DNA from: Gammaproteobacteria bacterium
Lineage (GTDB): Bacteria; Pseudomonadota; Gammaproteobacteria; Steroidobacterales; Steroidobacteraceae
Direction: 5' to 3'
DNA: 64,000 nt
NCBI GenBank assembly: GCA_947452065.1
Contig: CANGBB010000004.1
Span: 1 to 64,000, forward strand
Shown here: positions 8,152 through 34,548 of the stretch, piece after piece
How positions within the stretch are numbered: the stretch's first letter is position 1
How the letters are laid out: each line of letters begins with the position of its first letter
The notes under the pieces: model-generated
Databases searched by the model: none
What the model was told of the DNA's origin: nothing
The model's input: only the letters and a program-made list of their open reading frames with translations
Made by a program: the position numbers and the translations under genes

Positions 8152-9467
8152 GTTCAGGGATCATCGATACGCTGCAGAGGCGTATCCAAGACCTGGAACT
8201 GTCGCCGCCGACCGTCTGCGGTGTGCTCACTCGCGTCACCGGTATGTTACTGGCCGCGCGCGGTGTGCGGGCTCCGCTGGGTGCCTATTGCGAAGTGATG
8301 GCAGAACAGGGTGACGGCGTAGTCTGTGAGGTAGTCGGCTTCGACGGCGAAGAAGTCATGCTCATGCCGCTCGCAGCTGTTCAGGGTCTTCTGCCCGGGG
8401 CCGGCGTCCGGGTCATGACGCTCACCGCCCGTGTCGGCGTGGGCAACGCACTGCTTGGTCGCGTGCTGGATGGCCTGGGACAACCGCTCGATGGGGGTCC
8501 TGCGATCGAGCCCGAGGTCTATGTGCCGCTGCGGGCAGAGCGTCGAAATCCGCTCGAGCGCGCCCCCATCTCATCAGTGCTCGATGTGGGTGTGCGCGCT
8601 ATCAACTCCTTTCTGACCATCGGCCAGGGGCAGCGCATTGGTCTCATCGCGGGCAGCGGTGTAGGCAAGAGCATGCTGCTTGGCATGATGACTCAATACA
8701 CAGCCGCTGACGTGGTAGTGATCGGAATGATCGGTGAGCGTGGCCGCGAAGTCCTGGATTTCGTGCACGAGACGCTCGGCCGCGAGGGATCCAGTCGTGC
8801 GGTGGTGATTGCCGCACCCGGTGACTGCTCACCCGTGATTCGATTACGCGCCACACACTACACTTGCGCGGTTGCGGAGTTCTTTCGCGATCAGGGTAAG
8901 AACGTACTGCTGCTGATGGATTCTCTGACCCGCGTGGCTCATGCGCAACGCGAGGTCGGACTGGCGGTTGGCGAGCCGCCAACCACGAAGGGATATACCC
9001 CTTCCGTTTTCTCGCTCATCAATGAATTGATCGAACGTGCGGGCAGTGTCAGTAGCGGTGGCAGTATCACTGGCATATACACCATTCTGGCCGAGGGCGA
9101 TGACACCAACGATCCGATCGTTGATGGCGCGCGCGCAATTCTGGATGGACACGTGCTGCTGTCCCGAGATCTGGCAGCGCTTGGCCAATATCCCGCCATT
9201 GATATCAACACCTCCATTTCGCGTCTGGCCAACCGACTCATCTCCCAGGATCAGCGCACACTGGTGCGCAAATTCCGGCGGCTGATGGCGACATGGGAGG
9301 AAAACAGAGATCTTGTCTCTGTGGGCGCCTACCGCGCCGGCACGAATGCAGAGCTGGATGAAGCCCTCCAGCGGCATGGCTCGCTGCGTGAATTCCTGAT
9401 GCAGGAAGCTGACGAGAAGGTCGATTTTGCCACGGGCTTTCAGCAGCTCGCGCGAGTGCTTGCGTGA
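8148..9467 (+). CDS. fliI: Flagellum-specific ATPase FliI
   Basis: Encodes 439 residues. FliI is the F1-beta-like hexameric ATPase that energises export of rod, hook and filament proteins. Walker A is GLIAGSGVGKSMLL and the Walker B strand is NVLLLMDSLTRVAHAQREVGLA. The GEPPTTKGYTPSVFSLINEL stretch and C-terminal helices are typical. Initiation is probably at TTG 8148: GAGG lies 7 bp upstream and the codon overlaps the fliH stop (TTGA). A TTG start at a tight overlap suggests coupled, dampened translation relative to FliH. Confidence 0.96.
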   Translation: MSSGIIDTLQRRIQDLELSPPTVCGVLTRVTGMLLAARGVRAPLGAYCEVMAEQGDGVVCEVVGFDGEEVMLMPLAAVQGLLPGAGVRVMTLTARVGVGNALLGRVLDGLGQPLDGGPAIEPEVYVPLRAERRNPLERAPISSVLDVGVRAINSFLTIGQGQRIGLIAGSGVGKSMLLGMMTQYTAADVVVIGMIGERGREVLDFVHETLGREGSSRAVVIAAPGDCSPVIRLRATHYTCAVAEFFRDQGKNVLLLMDSLTRVAHAQREVGLAVGEPPTTKGYTPSVFSLINELIERAGSVSSGGSITGIYTILAEGDDTNDPIVDGARAILDGHVLLSRDLAALGQYPAIDINTSISRLANRLISQDQRTLVRKFRRLMATWEENRDLVSVGAYRAGTNAELDEALQRHGSLREFLMQEADEKVDFATGFQQLARVLA

Positions 9468-30342: not shown

Positions 30343-30405
30343 TAGCACTGCAGGAGCAGGGTGATGCTATCTGCAGCCGGATATGCCCAATACAGGATTA
30401 ATGCG

Positions 30406-30864
30406 ATGACTGCTGATTCCAAGGCTTTGTTAAAAGCGCCAGCCGGCATGCTCCTTATGGCGGTCCTGTTGGCAGGGTGTGGTTCAAAGGCCAGCTGCGA
30501 TAACCCAACGGCGACTGACCGAATGATTGAACTGGCGCGACAGGGCGTAGTCACCGATCTCGCTGACCAGTGCGCCACCAAGTTGTTCAATAAAATTCCG
30601 GCTGCATCGAGCGCCTGTTCCGCCACAGCGGAAAGTGGCGCCCAAAAATGTCAGACCGCTTGTAAGGTTTGGGCAGGGCAGGCTGTCAGTTCAAAAGTAC
30701 TCGAGGTCAAGACGGCATTCTCCGATGACACTATCGCCACAGTCCGATGTGTCGCATCGGTGCGCTTTGATGTCGCATTCGAAGGTGGACAAAAGGTCAC
30801 AACCGATATCGCCTACCTAGTTGCAAAGCAGAATGGCAAGCTGATGGTCGCGCTCAGTCAATGA
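30406..30864 (+). CDS. Small lipoprotein, unknown
   Basis: Encodes 152 residues from ATG 30406 (AGGA 9 bp upstream); ATG 30364 after an AGGAG is an alternative that would give an overlong signal peptide. Lipobox LAGC with Cys 25 is followed by Gly-Ser-Lys, which suggests outer-membrane sorting. The mature part has several Cys (CDNP, DQCATK, SACSAT, KCQTACKVW) that could form disulfides, and a beta-rich C-terminus. It overlaps the next lipoprotein gene by 4 bp. Confidence 0.6.
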   Translation: MTADSKALLKAPAGMLLMAVLLAGCGSKASCDNPTATDRMIELARQGVVTDLADQCATKLFNKIPAASSACSATAESGAQKCQTACKVWAGQAVSSKVLEVKTAFSDDTIATVRCVASVRFDVAFEGGQKVTTDIAYLVAKQNGKLMVALSQ

Positions 30865-31316
30865 CCACGTGGCGCTCATTCAGACTGCCGATTTACACGT
30901 GGCCGTTGCTTGCAGCGGCCGCGGCCTGTGGATGCAGCGCAGCTAGTAACGAATCGACGCCACCTGCTCAGGCGACTGTTGCCAAGGATGTGATTGATCT
31001 TGGCGCCACCCGTCTCGAAGCTCTTATTGTCTGCTACAAAGTCGTCATCCTGACCCAGCAGCGCTACTCCGGATCCGGTGTCCAGCATGATGGAATCGCC
31101 GGAGCGCTGGCTAAACCCAGGCGCAGTATTGAGGATCGCCTGATTGGTGACCTCACTGAAGGGCGACAAAAAGCTCGCGTTGCATCGCAAGTCGAAGAAA
31201 GACTTCAGTCATTGATAGAGAGCAAGCCCTATACCGTTAATGAGCTGTTACTCAACACGGCACAGAAGTGCTCGGACCTGGAGCAGCGCAACGGCTGGGC
31301 GGAGTTGTCCAAGTGA
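30861..31316 (+). CDS. Small lipoprotein, unknown (second of pair)
   Basis: Encodes 151 residues. A signal peptide ends at CGC-type lipobox (AAACGC, about residue 23-25). The mature part is Ser/Thr-rich and then helical, with a Cys near KCSDLEQ. No family recognised. ATGA overlap with the preceding lipoprotein indicates coupled expression. The pair lies 100 bp ahead of the two-sensor channel gene in the same direction, so co-transcription is possible. Confidence 0.58.
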   Translation: MTTWRSFRLPIYTWPLLAAAAACGCSAASNESTPPAQATVAKDVIDLGATRLEALIVCYKVVILTQQRYSGSGVQHDGIAGALAKPRRSIEDRLIGDLTEGRQKARVASQVEERLQSLIESKPYTVNELLLNTAQKCSDLEQRNGWAELSK

Positions 31317-31416: not shown

Positions 31417-32934
31417 ATGTTCCTAGCCTCAGCCCGCGCCTGGGTATTCAATAGCCTTTTCAATGTTGAAAAGCGCAGCGGGCCCGCCAGGCGGCTCGAT
31501 ACCTTCATCACCTGGTTGATCGTCGCCAATCTCTTGGCGCTGGTTTTTGAGCACATTCCCGCGGTGTATTCAGTACATGCGGAGTATTTTCATCTATTCG
31601 ATCGGCTCTCCATTTATTTCTTCACCCTCGAGTATGTTCTCCGGCTTTTCGCGGCGGGCGGTGACCCGAGGTTCCAGGGTCGGCATTTCCCAGCATTACG
31701 CTTCTCTCTGACCGCGTTTGCGCTGATCGACATACTTGTCATCGCTCCCTATTGGTTGCATCTGGTGGGAGTCATTGATCTGGATCTCAGAGCACTGCGA
31801 GCTCTGCGTCTGCTGCGTCTATTGAAGTTAATGCGCGACTTCGTGCCAGCACTGGCTGAGTTTCGTCGAGTCAATAAGGGCCGAACAATCCGTCAGAAGG
31901 TTGATGCGCTCATCAACGAAACGCCGACATCAGGACGTCTGCATCGGCAAATCGACTGGATTTTCATGTTCTTCATCATCTCGAGCGTCTTGGCAGTATT
32001 CCTCGAGACCATACCTGCAGTACATGATCCGCTGAAAATCGAGTTCCGCTGGTTTGACACGGTTTCGATCACGATATTCACATTCGAATACCTGCTGCGT
32101 CTTTATGCAGCGCCAGAAACCATGCGGAAAAGCTCTGCGTTCGGTGCCCGACTGGGCTTCATTAAGAAGCCCAGTAGCATCGTGGACCTGCTGGCCATTC
32201 TGCCGTACTACCTGCAGTTCCTCGTGGTGGCTGATCTGAGATTCATCCGTATCCTGCGGGCTCTCCGGATCCTGAAGCTATCGCGATACAACACTGCGTT
32301 GACCACCTTTGGTCAGGTGCTCAGGCGCGAGCACCGTGCATTTTTTGCGGCCATGTTCATCACTGCGTTGATCACGGTCATTTCGGCGGCTGTCGTCTAT
32401 GAGCTCGAACATCCCGTGCAGCCCGACAAATTCGACACCATGCCGCGCGCACTGTATTGGGCTGTCATCACGCTGGCGAGTGTCGGGTACGGAGATCTTT
32501 CGCCAGTAACGCCGATCGGCCAGTCATTCACAATGATTCTGGCCATTCTCGGTATCGGCATCGTGGCACTCCCAGCCGGTATTCTGGGATCTGCGTTCTC
32601 CGACCAGCTTCAGCAGCAGCGAGAGCAGATGCTAAAAGAAGTTGAGGAAGCGTTTTCTGATGGCGTGCTTTCCGAAGATGAGACGCGTTATCTTGAAGAA
32701 GAGCGCATTCGCCTCCACCTGACTGAAGAGCAGTTGCAAGGTATGAAGGAGCGTGCCATGGCGCGTTTTTCAGCCGAAGCTACGCTGCCTCAACGGATCC
32801 TCAAGGCTTCCGATGAAATCATCCGGCTGCGAGAAGAGTTGCACGCGCTGCCGATTGATGCGGCAATCGTCGAAATCGACAAGCTCAATCTTCCGGGCGC
32901 CGAGAAGGCGGCCCTGCGCGTGCTGTTGAAATAG
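31417..32934 (+). CDS. Voltage-gated K+-channel-like protein with two voltage-sensor domains and one pore
   Basis: Encodes 505 residues with AAAGGAAG before the ATG. Membrane segments group as S1-S4 (28-140), S1-S4 again (178-290) and one S5-P-S6 (308-392). Both S4 helices carry basic residues every third position: R125, R128, R131, R134, K137, R140 and R275, R278, R281, R284, K287, R290. Both S2 helices have the FT(L/F)EY acidic site (E72, E224) and both S3 an Asp (D105, D257). The filter is ASVGYGD (354-360), so K+ selectivity is likely. A charged helical C-terminus has a DGVLSEDE segment like TerB-type helical domains. Tetrameric assembly would bring eight sensors to one pore. Confidence 0.88.
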   Translation: MFLASARAWVFNSLFNVEKRSGPARRLDTFITWLIVANLLALVFEHIPAVYSVHAEYFHLFDRLSIYFFTLEYVLRLFAAGGDPRFQGRHFPALRFSLTAFALIDILVIAPYWLHLVGVIDLDLRALRALRLLRLLKLMRDFVPALAEFRRVNKGRTIRQKVDALINETPTSGRLHRQIDWIFMFFIISSVLAVFLETIPAVHDPLKIEFRWFDTVSITIFTFEYLLRLYAAPETMRKSSAFGARLGFIKKPSSIVDLLAILPYYLQFLVVADLRFIRILRALRILKLSRYNTALTTFGQVLRREHRAFFAAMFITALITVISAAVVYELEHPVQPDKFDTMPRALYWAVITLASVGYGDLSPVTPIGQSFTMILAILGIGIVALPAGILGSAFSDQLQQQREQMLKEVEEAFSDGVLSEDETRYLEEERIRLHLTEEQLQGMKERAMARFSAEATLPQRILKASDEIIRLREELHALPIDAAIVEIDKLNLPGAEKAALRVLLK

Positions 32935-33009: not shown

Positions 33010-34548
33010 CTATTTGCTCTTGGCAGCAGCCTGGGTTGAGGTCTTGGCCACATACGGACGCATGACGTAAGAGTCCGCCACCATCCCGTTCTTGCGGCCT
33101 GCGTCTTCCTTCGATGGGATCCAGGTCTGCACGTAGTCCACCTTCACACCTTCCGGGCCGACATGTGCGCGCAGGTAGCCCGAGCCACCCAGCACCGTGC
33201 CGTGGGTGTAGCCGTAGCGCGTGCCACGATCGCCCAATTCAGTGCTACGTGCGCTGGGCTGCGGACCTTCCTGGTAAACGATGCCGTCCAGATCCTGCTT
33301 GGCGTAAGTGTGATCATGGCCATGGAAGAAGGCGGTGACGTGGTTCGCCACCAGTAACTGGTGAATCGGCATTGGCCAGCCTGGACGCGCCTTGTCGAAG
33401 CCCCAGGTGTCATCGAGGTTGTAGCCACCCCATTCGAGGTACTTCGCAACTTCGATGCCGCCGCGCATGATGCCATCCATGTCCTTGCCACCGATCAGAT
33501 TGTGGGCGAACACGAATTTGTATTTGGCTTTACTGGTTTCCAAAGTCTTCTTCAGCCAGTCATATTGATCGCGACCCAGCGTCAGGAACCAGTCACCGGC
33601 CTGCTCGGGCGGCTTCGGCACGTTCCAGTAAGGATCGAGCATGATGAATAGCGCATCACCCCATTCCCAGGCGTAATTGGCCTGGCGCAGGCCGATGCCG
33701 GGTTCATTCTTGCTGCTGCCGGTGTAGAAGCCATTGGGCTCCGGGTTCGGGAAGTAACGTTTGCGCTCGACGGAATCCCAGATTGGCAAATCGTCCTTCG
33801 GTCCCATGGGGTTGCCCCATTCGCCCTCGTGGTTGCCAAGGCCAAAATACAGCACGGCCGAATGAGTGAGCAGATCGTAGTAGGAACGGTTCAACAGTGC
33901 GCGCTGATGCACACCTTCCATGCTGTGCGGACGCAGTCGATCGGTGAACAGGTTGTCGCCGACGTCCACCAAGAAATCTGGCTTGTCGGCCAGCATGTTC
34001 TTCAGCGTCAGCTTGTAAGTCTCGGCATCGGTCCCTTCATCCAGATGCGGATCGAACTGCATGACGAAGGTGAATTCGCTGCCCGGCTTGCGCTGTGTGT
34101 GGAAGGTATGTTCCGCACGGGTCGTGAAATTCGTTGCACCGGGTTCGCGATACTGCATGCGATAGTAGTACTGCGTGTCGGGTTGCAGTTTCTCGATCAG
34201 CACATTGATGGGCTGGTCCGCCGGTAGATAAGTGATCGGCGTCTTGGCGGTGTAAGAGCCGGGCTTGGTGCCGTACTCGTAATAGATCTCGACGTTCTGG
34301 CGAGCCGCAGCGTTGATGGTGATGGCTGTATCGGTCGGTCGACCCAGCATTTCCAAGCCGACAAACACCGGATCATTGGTCGCTGGCGCGTGCTGTGACT
34401 GTCGCTGTCCCTGTCCCTGTCCCTGACCCTGACCTTGTCCTTGCCCCGCGCCCTGTCCGGCACGCGACTGAGCGCCGGCATGCATGCCGGCCAGTAGCAG
34501 CGGCAGCGCTGCAGCAGCGATCACGATACGTGTGTTGCGGAAGTTCAT
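33010..34548 (-). CDS. Secreted purple-acid-phosphatase-like metallophosphoesterase
   Basis: Encodes 512 residues. A signal peptide (about 1-26) is followed by a Gly-Gln repeat, then a fibronectin-like N-domain typical of purple acid phosphatases (VEIYYEYGTKPGSY; LQPDTQYYYRMQYR) and the metallophosphoesterase domain. Metal ligands are visible in FDPHLDE, VGDNLFTD, GLGNHEGE, FAHN and FHGHDHTY. The first motif is DPH rather than the common DxH with a hydrophobic middle. Substrate unknown; phosphate scavenging or phosphodiester cleavage in the periplasm is likely. It lies behind an arylsulfotransferase-like gene on the same strand. Confidence 0.85.
   Translation of the reverse strand: MNFRNTRIVIAAAALPLLLAGMHAGAQSRAGQGAGQGQGQGQGQGQGQRQSQHAPATNDPVFVGLEMLGRPTDTAITINAAARQNVEIYYEYGTKPGSYTAKTPITYLPADQPINVLIEKLQPDTQYYYRMQYREPGATNFTTRAEHTFHTQRKPGSEFTFVMQFDPHLDEGTDAETYKLTLKNMLADKPDFLVDVGDNLFTDRLRPHSMEGVHQRALLNRSYYDLLTHSAVLYFGLGNHEGEWGNPMGPKDDLPIWDSVERKRYFPNPEPNGFYTGSSKNEPGIGLRQANYAWEWGDALFIMLDPYWNVPKPPEQAGDWFLTLGRDQYDWLKKTLETSKAKYKFVFAHNLIGGKDMDGIMRGGIEVAKYLEWGGYNLDDTWGFDKARPGWPMPIHQLLVANHVTAFFHGHDHTYAKQDLDGIVYQEGPQPSARSTELGDRGTRYGYTHGTVLGGSGYLRAHVGPEGVKVDYVQTWIPSKEDAGRKNGMVADSYVMRPYVAKTSTQAAAKSK
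34404..34446. repeat. Hexanucleotide repeat encoding (GQ)n
   Basis: Seven or so copies of a CTGTCC-type hexamer (with CTGACC and TTGTCC variants) encode alternating Gly-Gln directly after the signal peptide of the phosphatase. Because the unit is 6 bp, copy-number change alters linker length but keeps the frame. Confidence 0.8.

Follow-up and report, generated by a model that had tools for sequence, protein, structure and literature searches.

Ordinary Kv-type channels have one voltage sensor per pore unit. The original prediction for this locus had phrased the rule as one sensor per pore; its substance stands, the correct wording being one sensor per pore-forming subunit. Hv1, by comparison, has no pore module, and is marked by an Asp in mid-S1 and the S4 motif RxWRxxRxxN. 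Two-pore channels (TPC) have two voltage-sensor domains (VSDs) per chain, each chain consisting of two repeats of six transmembrane segments (6TM) and therefore carrying two pore modules (PMC8665364). In the tandem Kv-like channels of dinoflagellates, oomycetes and a chlorarachniophyte, the entire 6TM unit is doubled, giving an S4 in each repeat, two VSDs and two pore modules (PMC7576140). NavAb has a single VSD per subunit, and its sensors are able to leave the pore and pair together (PMC10730821). Among the literature matches listed, whose scope left out most subscription journals, no prokaryotic VSD-VSD-pore protein was described, in agreement with the original prediction, which knew of no characterised prokaryotic example.

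The window, by which we mean the whole stretch of 64,000 nucleotides that was analysed, contains such a protein. Its gene is an open reading frame with an ATG start on the forward strand (31417-32934; all features below are on this strand unless marked otherwise), and the ORF list and translation give 505 residues with the layout VSD-VSD-pore. VSD1 comprises residues 27-142 (31495-31842), as judged from a match to the A3 VSD profile (G000:C4:31426-31881, 1.1e-53) and from a structure model. VSD2, residues 177-291 (31945-32289), adjoins the pore, matches the same profile (G000:C4:31876-32328, 2.5e-58) and is the homologue of the sensor in single-VSD relatives. The two are separated by a linker that runs from the VSD1 S4 to VSD2 (residues 143-176, 31843-31944). 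As the original prediction had noted, each block carries an acidic S2 residue (E72, E224), an S3 Asp (D105, D257) and an S4 with six basic residues at every third position, and these were all found in the translation: R125, R128, R131, R134, K137 and R140 in VSD1 (31789-31836), and R275, R278, R281, R284, K287 and R290 in VSD2 (32239-32286). It had not mentioned the S2 aromatic charge-transfer residue (F69, F221) or the S2 Arg (R76, R228). Runs of at least four K or R at every third position occur only twice in the protein, both of six, and two runs of six basic residues appeared in none of 5000 letter shuffles. The single S5-P-S6 that had been predicted was likewise confirmed. The pore module spans residues 305-400 (32329-32616), Pfam Ion_trans_2 matches one stretch only (316-394, 1.9e-15), and the filter ASVGYGD lies at residues 354-360, its last six residues at 32479-32496. 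Residues 413-505 (32653-32931) form cytoplasmic C-terminal helices in the model, and lack the CPHCG motif present in the consensus of the A2 alignment, of whose 39 rows 31 are single-VSD proteins.

The match to Pfam Ion_trans (PF00520) scores 162.4 bits against a cut-off of 25 (1.3e-47), in two stretches of which the best is 177-401. As it extends over sensor and pore, it places the protein in the voltage-gated cation channel superfamily, and the GYGD filter within S5-P-S6 is that of K+-selective Kv channels. The layout departs from the canonical 6TM arrangement of one VSD per pore module, with two VSD profile matches within one frame. With two VSDs in the chain it resembles TPC (PMC8665364), and it shares with the eukaryotic tandem channels an internal doubling in a Kv-like chain with an S4 in each repeat (PMC7576140). 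In both of these, however, the pore module is doubled as well, whereas here there is one filter and one Ion_trans_2 stretch, and only the VSD is doubled. The presence of S5-P-S6 sets the protein apart from Hv1. Homology to the hyperpolarization-activated voltage-gated potassium channel family of NCBIfam (NF040645, K_channel_Meth) is weak, the score of 67.6 bits (best stretch 173-378) falling far below the cut-off of 300. The most similar relatives found were single-VSD 6TM bacterial Kv-like channels (PF00520), whose VSD and pore are homologous to VSD2 and pore of the tandem protein. The 33 that were compared (L009-L032, L053-L063, same class) are 32-43% identical to it, and most share the S4 register, together with the GYGD filter; they have one VSD, and fall outside the tandem clade (100/99). 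The window's own genome (2.17 Mb, 10 contigs) holds one tandem copy only, and its second channel is a single-VSD protein in a 289-aa frame (G000:C1:344438-345169).

Scans for the tandem layout covered samples of each taxon rather than all genomes. A search of 296 genomes of the window's order with the 505-aa protein gave matches in 65 at E<=1e-20. The match takes in VSD1 in six (the window's own, G201, G073, G152, G273 and, in two pieces, G118), and starts at residue 130 or later, that is, in single-VSD channels, in the other 59. With the tandem profile, the window's family gave 12 matching genomes out of 217 at E<=1e-40: the gene is intact in eight, has a broken frame in three (G118, G413, G408) and runs off the end of its contig in one (G418). 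The frames are broken at differing points (G118:C29 around residues 306-325, G413:C38 around 81-102, G408:C2 around 92-94), by either real decay or assembly error. Within the window's genus the tandem gene was found in one of 15 listed genomes, its own, and not in the other 14. The distribution is patchy. At class level, 26 of 369 genomes match at E<=1e-60, with a tandem in the window's own genome only. At phylum level, where VSD profile matches were listed at E<=1e-15 only, 114 of 398 genomes match, and two VSDs in one frame occur only in the window's own genome and in G1149; of 12 other frames longer than 450 aa, the 11 fetched have one VSD each (G695 was left out). G1149 is a single-contig genome of 2.02 Mb from family f202. 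Four of 200 genomes of that family match at E<=1e-50, three of them with a tandem and all three in genus g357, where 19 of 121 genomes match and 18 are tandem. One g357 genome (G1376) carries two copies, and the copy in another (G1394) has an in-frame stop, TAA.

A single tandem member was found in the plasmid collection, on a complete plasmid of the alphaproteobacterium Gemmobacter aquarius HYN0069 (NZ_CP028919.1; L102:3860-5335), where it is annotated 'ion transporter' (WP_159082572.1). It is 33% identical to the window protein and has two VSD profile matches. Plasmid matches to VSD1 from Hymenobacter and Halorussus were rejected as single-VSD channels. Five matches among phage records do not extend to VSD1, and of three loci in the viral collection two are single-VSD and the third (L120) is a tandem channel truncated where its contig begins. 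No match extended over VSD1 in family f236 (29 of 179 genomes at E<=1e-35; 15 fetched loci have one VSD each) or in its class, that of G1007 (30 of 190 at E<=1e-60). One metagenome bin holds a full and a partial tandem copy (CAMCBU010000004.1, L036; CAMCBU010000033.1, L038); it is titled Klebsiella pneumoniae, a title that looks wrong, and gives the same match as G073 of the window's family.

Conservation was assessed by aligning 27 intact tandem proteins, encoded in 26 genomes of two families: eight come from the window's family and 19 from g357. All 12 S4 charges are invariant in 27/27, as are F69, E72, R76, D105 and their counterparts F221, E224, R228 and D257, and the filter residues S355-D360 (SVGYGD). 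Linker residues P144, F149, N153, G173 and L175 are kept in 28/28, the Gemmobacter member counted in. That protein keeps R128, R131 and R134 of VSD1 (3/6) and R281, R284, K287 and R290 of VSD2 (4/6), with Leu replacing F69, Ala N38 and Asp E45. Mean pairwise identity among the 27 proteins is 0.62 for VSD1, 0.59 for VSD2, 0.75 for the pore (the highest) and 0.45 for the C-terminus. VSD1 is thus on average no faster-varying than VSD2, although in some pairs it is the less conserved block (L006/L007, 56% against 64% identity). dN/dS was taken from the two closest pairs, dS being saturated or not computable in distant ones. For L033/L034 it is ~0.06 in VSD1 (dN 0.08, dS 1.33) and ~0.11 in VSD2 (dN 0.13, dS 1.23); for L004/L005, ~0.08 (dN 0.03, dS 0.40) and ~0.12 (dN 0.04, dS 0.34). 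VSD1 is under purifying selection.

An AlphaFold2 (AF2) model of the full protein from a 39-row alignment had a mean pLDDT of 85.3 and a pTM of only 0.65, with VSD1 helices at 22-45, 55-82, 100-117 and 124-152; VSD1 modelled alone reached pLDDT 83.3 and pTM 0.73. The best Foldseek match of the VSD1 model was KCNQ2 (8j00_A, E 3.7e-4, TM 0.74). KCNQ chains occupied the first 24 rows (TM 0.67-0.74), nine matches having E<=0.001, and Kv4.2, NavAb and a bacterial-type calcium channel followed below. The whole model matches Kv4, Kv2.1, Kv1 and KCNQ channels, and among PDB sequences VSD1 matches a sodium channel (4bgn, 4.8e-7) and KCNQ5 (7.8e-7). The original prediction, that neither S4 is vestigial, had called for homologues of the same layout with both S4 arrays kept, and had named a non-VSD fold of the first block as grounds for abandoning it. 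The first block models as a VSD, and the charges of both blocks are conserved throughout the 27 proteins, Gemmobacter with its 3/6 in the first block standing apart.

The phylogenetic trees carried a long-branch warning from treekit. In a first tree of eight tandem proteins and 33 single-VSD units, VSD1 and VSD2 each formed a clade (100/100 and 100/99), the VSD1 branch being long. A second VSD tree held 13 tandem proteins, 18 single-VSD units and four g357 paralogues that lack VSD1 (S2). Here 12 VSD1 rows, 13 VSD2 rows and the four S2 rows formed one clade (96/92) apart from the single-VSD units, and those 12 VSD1 rows a clade of their own (100/100). The Gemmobacter VSD1 sat on a very long branch (4.43) among single-VSD rows, outside the VSD1 clade; holding all 13 VSD1 rows together was not rejected (p-AU 0.354), nor was joining VSD1, VSD2 and S2 (0.541) or a VSD2 clade without S2 (0.188). 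VSD1 is sister to VSD2, which points to internal duplication: most likely, the channel copied its own VSD unit to give the first VSD.

A tree built on residues 157-445 placed the tandem proteins and the four VSD1-less paralogues (L076, L081, L083, L100) in a clade (100/99) against the 33 single-VSD channels, with the paralogues nested inside (100/95). They start with a tandem-like linker, NKGR-RQK-TPTSG, and no VSD1 remnant was found in the 1000 bases upstream of L076. Loss of VSD1 is the simplest reading of these paralogues, though two separate gains would need equal steps on this tree. They show that VSD1 is dispensable for the pore module. One further g357 tandem protein, L084, groups with the window's clade (100/99), which suggests transfer or old paralogy. 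The G+C content of the window's gene is 0.543 against 0.612 for the whole window, but as the neighbouring ORF 30361-30864 has 0.540, we make no claim of transfer for it.

In the second clade, that of the other g357 tandem proteins, a gene for a small protein lies directly upstream of the channel, encoding 177-188 aa in 16 aligned copies; the L101 copy, as cut, has 148 aa. In G1149 it overlaps the channel start by 4 bases (8353-8919, with the channel starting at 8916; L064). A tblastn search with the G1149 copy found it at 18/18 second-clade loci (33-100% identity), with weak or incomplete matches at L101 (23%, 6.9e-9) and L086 (truncated where its contig begins); none was found at L084 of the first clade, at three VSD1-less loci, or at the window-clade or Gemmobacter loci searched. 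A profile of 17 copies added L099, making 19/19 second-clade loci, and no others. Among 14 chosen genomes, it occurs in 3/3 with a second-clade tandem channel and in 0/11 others, G1427 (VSD1-less paralogue only) and G1363 included. The 17 aligned copies all have four cysteines in the same columns. No Pfam (E<=0.01) or PDB sequence match (E<=10) was found, and the best NCBIfam score is at chance level (11.2 bits, cut-off 768). From our reading of its letters, the companion would have a membrane helix at its N-terminus and a cysteine domain in the periplasm, and may be an accessory subunit of the second-clade channel.

The neighbourhood of the window's own clade is shared only in part, with no consistent partner. 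Two consecutive small ORFs without Pfam match lie upstream of the channel (30361-30864 and 30861-31316, the latter stopping 100 bases before the channel start); read by eye, they are putative lipoproteins. Relatives of both (54% and 45%) lie upstream of the L046 channel, with at least one other ORF between, and the first has a weak relative in L035/L036 (23%, 1.9e-7). In the 14 genomes searched, a relative of 30861-31316 was found in three of nine with a first-clade tandem (the window's own, G406 and G273, in the last on a different contig from its channel) and in none of five same-genus genomes without one. Within ~5 kb of the channel, L033/L034 and L035/L036 have a polysaccharide deacetylase/GHL13 protein and a family-2 glycosyltransferase, which we take to be PgaB/PgaC-like; these are 57-65% identical between the two pairs of loci and do not occur within the window. 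In L034 and L033 a gene on the same strand, 93% identical between them, follows the tandem channel after 13 bases (L034:7517-8890, L033:4475-5848), the L034 product having a cyclic-nucleotide-binding domain and membrane-like ends. On the reverse strand of the window, an arylsulfotransferase-like protein (PF05935, 34631-36334) adjoins a metallophosphoesterase (33010-34548).

We favour a reading, with a probability of roughly 60%, in which VSD2 gates the K+ pore and is joined by VSD1 as a second module that responds to voltage and modulates the pore; K+ selectivity, tetrameric assembly, movement of VSD1 and coupling between the sensors are the parts that we infer. A single-VSD bacterial Kv channel would have duplicated its N-terminal VSD unit (pre-S1 helix, S1-S4 and post-S4 helix) to give a K+-channel subunit with ten transmembrane segments, four of which would probably assemble around one K+ pore with eight voltage sensors. 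VSD2, retaining the ordinary link to S5, would gate the pore directly, a role well supported by homology since VSD2 and pore are those of an ordinary Kv-like channel. The VSD1 S4 would still move with voltage and act through the conserved post-S4 linker (P144, F149, N153) on VSD2 or a neighbouring subunit, shifting the voltage response or gating it in a second step. The evidence for voltage sensing and modulation by VSD1 is its invariant sensing set (27/27) and the invariance of these exit-helix residues (28/28). VSDs can act or pair without an adjoining pore in Hv1 and in the sensor dimers of NavAb, and the NavAb pairing (PMC10730821) shows that contact between sensors is physically possible, though it does not show it in the tandem channel. 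Against this reading count the charge loss and the long VSD1 branch in Gemmobacter, the VSD1-less paralogues, the patchy occurrence of the gene, the pairs in which VSD1 is less conserved than VSD2, and the pTM of 0.65 for the whole model.

The S4 charges could have been retained for folding or insertion rather than for sensing. VSD1 would then be kept as a structural or assembly element, or as a place where a partner docks, its charges serving folding and salt bridges. The companion of the second clade, which is encoded together with the tandem channel but was not detected around the VSD1-less paralogues, fits such a role, as does the Gemmobacter member, which keeps the layout with fewer charges. 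However, the 27 proteins keep the full R-R-R-R-K-R register with its Phe, Glu and Asp, which is the pattern of VSD2 and of most single-VSD units, and no companion homologue was found in the window's own clade. We regard this alternative as unlikely, if still a serious one. Much less probable is that VSD1 forms a permeation path of its own for protons or other cations, independent of the K+ pore, as the original prediction had suggested for protons. VSD1 is complete, and Hv1 establishes that a VSD can conduct. Nevertheless, S1 of VSD1 has an Asn (N38) in 27/27 proteins at what we take, aligning through E45, to be the place of the Hv1 selectivity Asp; its S4 does not contain RxWRxxRxxN; none of the 46 PDB sequences matching VSD1 at E<=1 is named as a proton channel; and KCNQ and Kv channels head its structural matches. 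Finally, the layout might stem from duplication during sequencing or assembly, an outcome that had been named as one that would overturn the prediction, or might be a fusion in decay; the three broken frames and the in-frame TAA could speak for this. It can be dismissed for the family, because VSD1 and VSD2 are only ~38% identical, the layout recurs in independent assemblies, including single-contig genomes such as G1149 and a complete plasmid, and dN/dS is low.

The reading of VSD1 as a voltage-responsive modulator can be taken further, tentatively and with more doubt than confidence. The assembly would be an eight-sensor K+ channel in which two rings of sensors gate one pore in sequence, VSD1 being a separately tuned regulator; in the second clade, VSD1 might be controlled by a dedicated, co-translated subunit whose four-cysteine domain would lie outside the cytoplasm.

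As at least one member was already public as an 'ion transporter', the novelty lies in recognising the layout, its conservation and the companion gene of one clade. Work on how S4 movement is transmitted to the pore, and on how many sensors must move, mostly uses channels with a single sensor per pore unit. Two sensors per pore unit offer a natural test of sensor-pore coupling, and a ready-made comparison set exists in the two-sensor family, its VSD1-less sister paralogues and a divergent member in which both sensors carry fewer charges. If the further reading is true, the four-cysteine subunit could let the second-clade channel respond jointly to membrane voltage and to a signal from the periplasm. 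The finding would show that some bacteria invest in elaborate voltage gating, and bears on bacterial electrical signalling.
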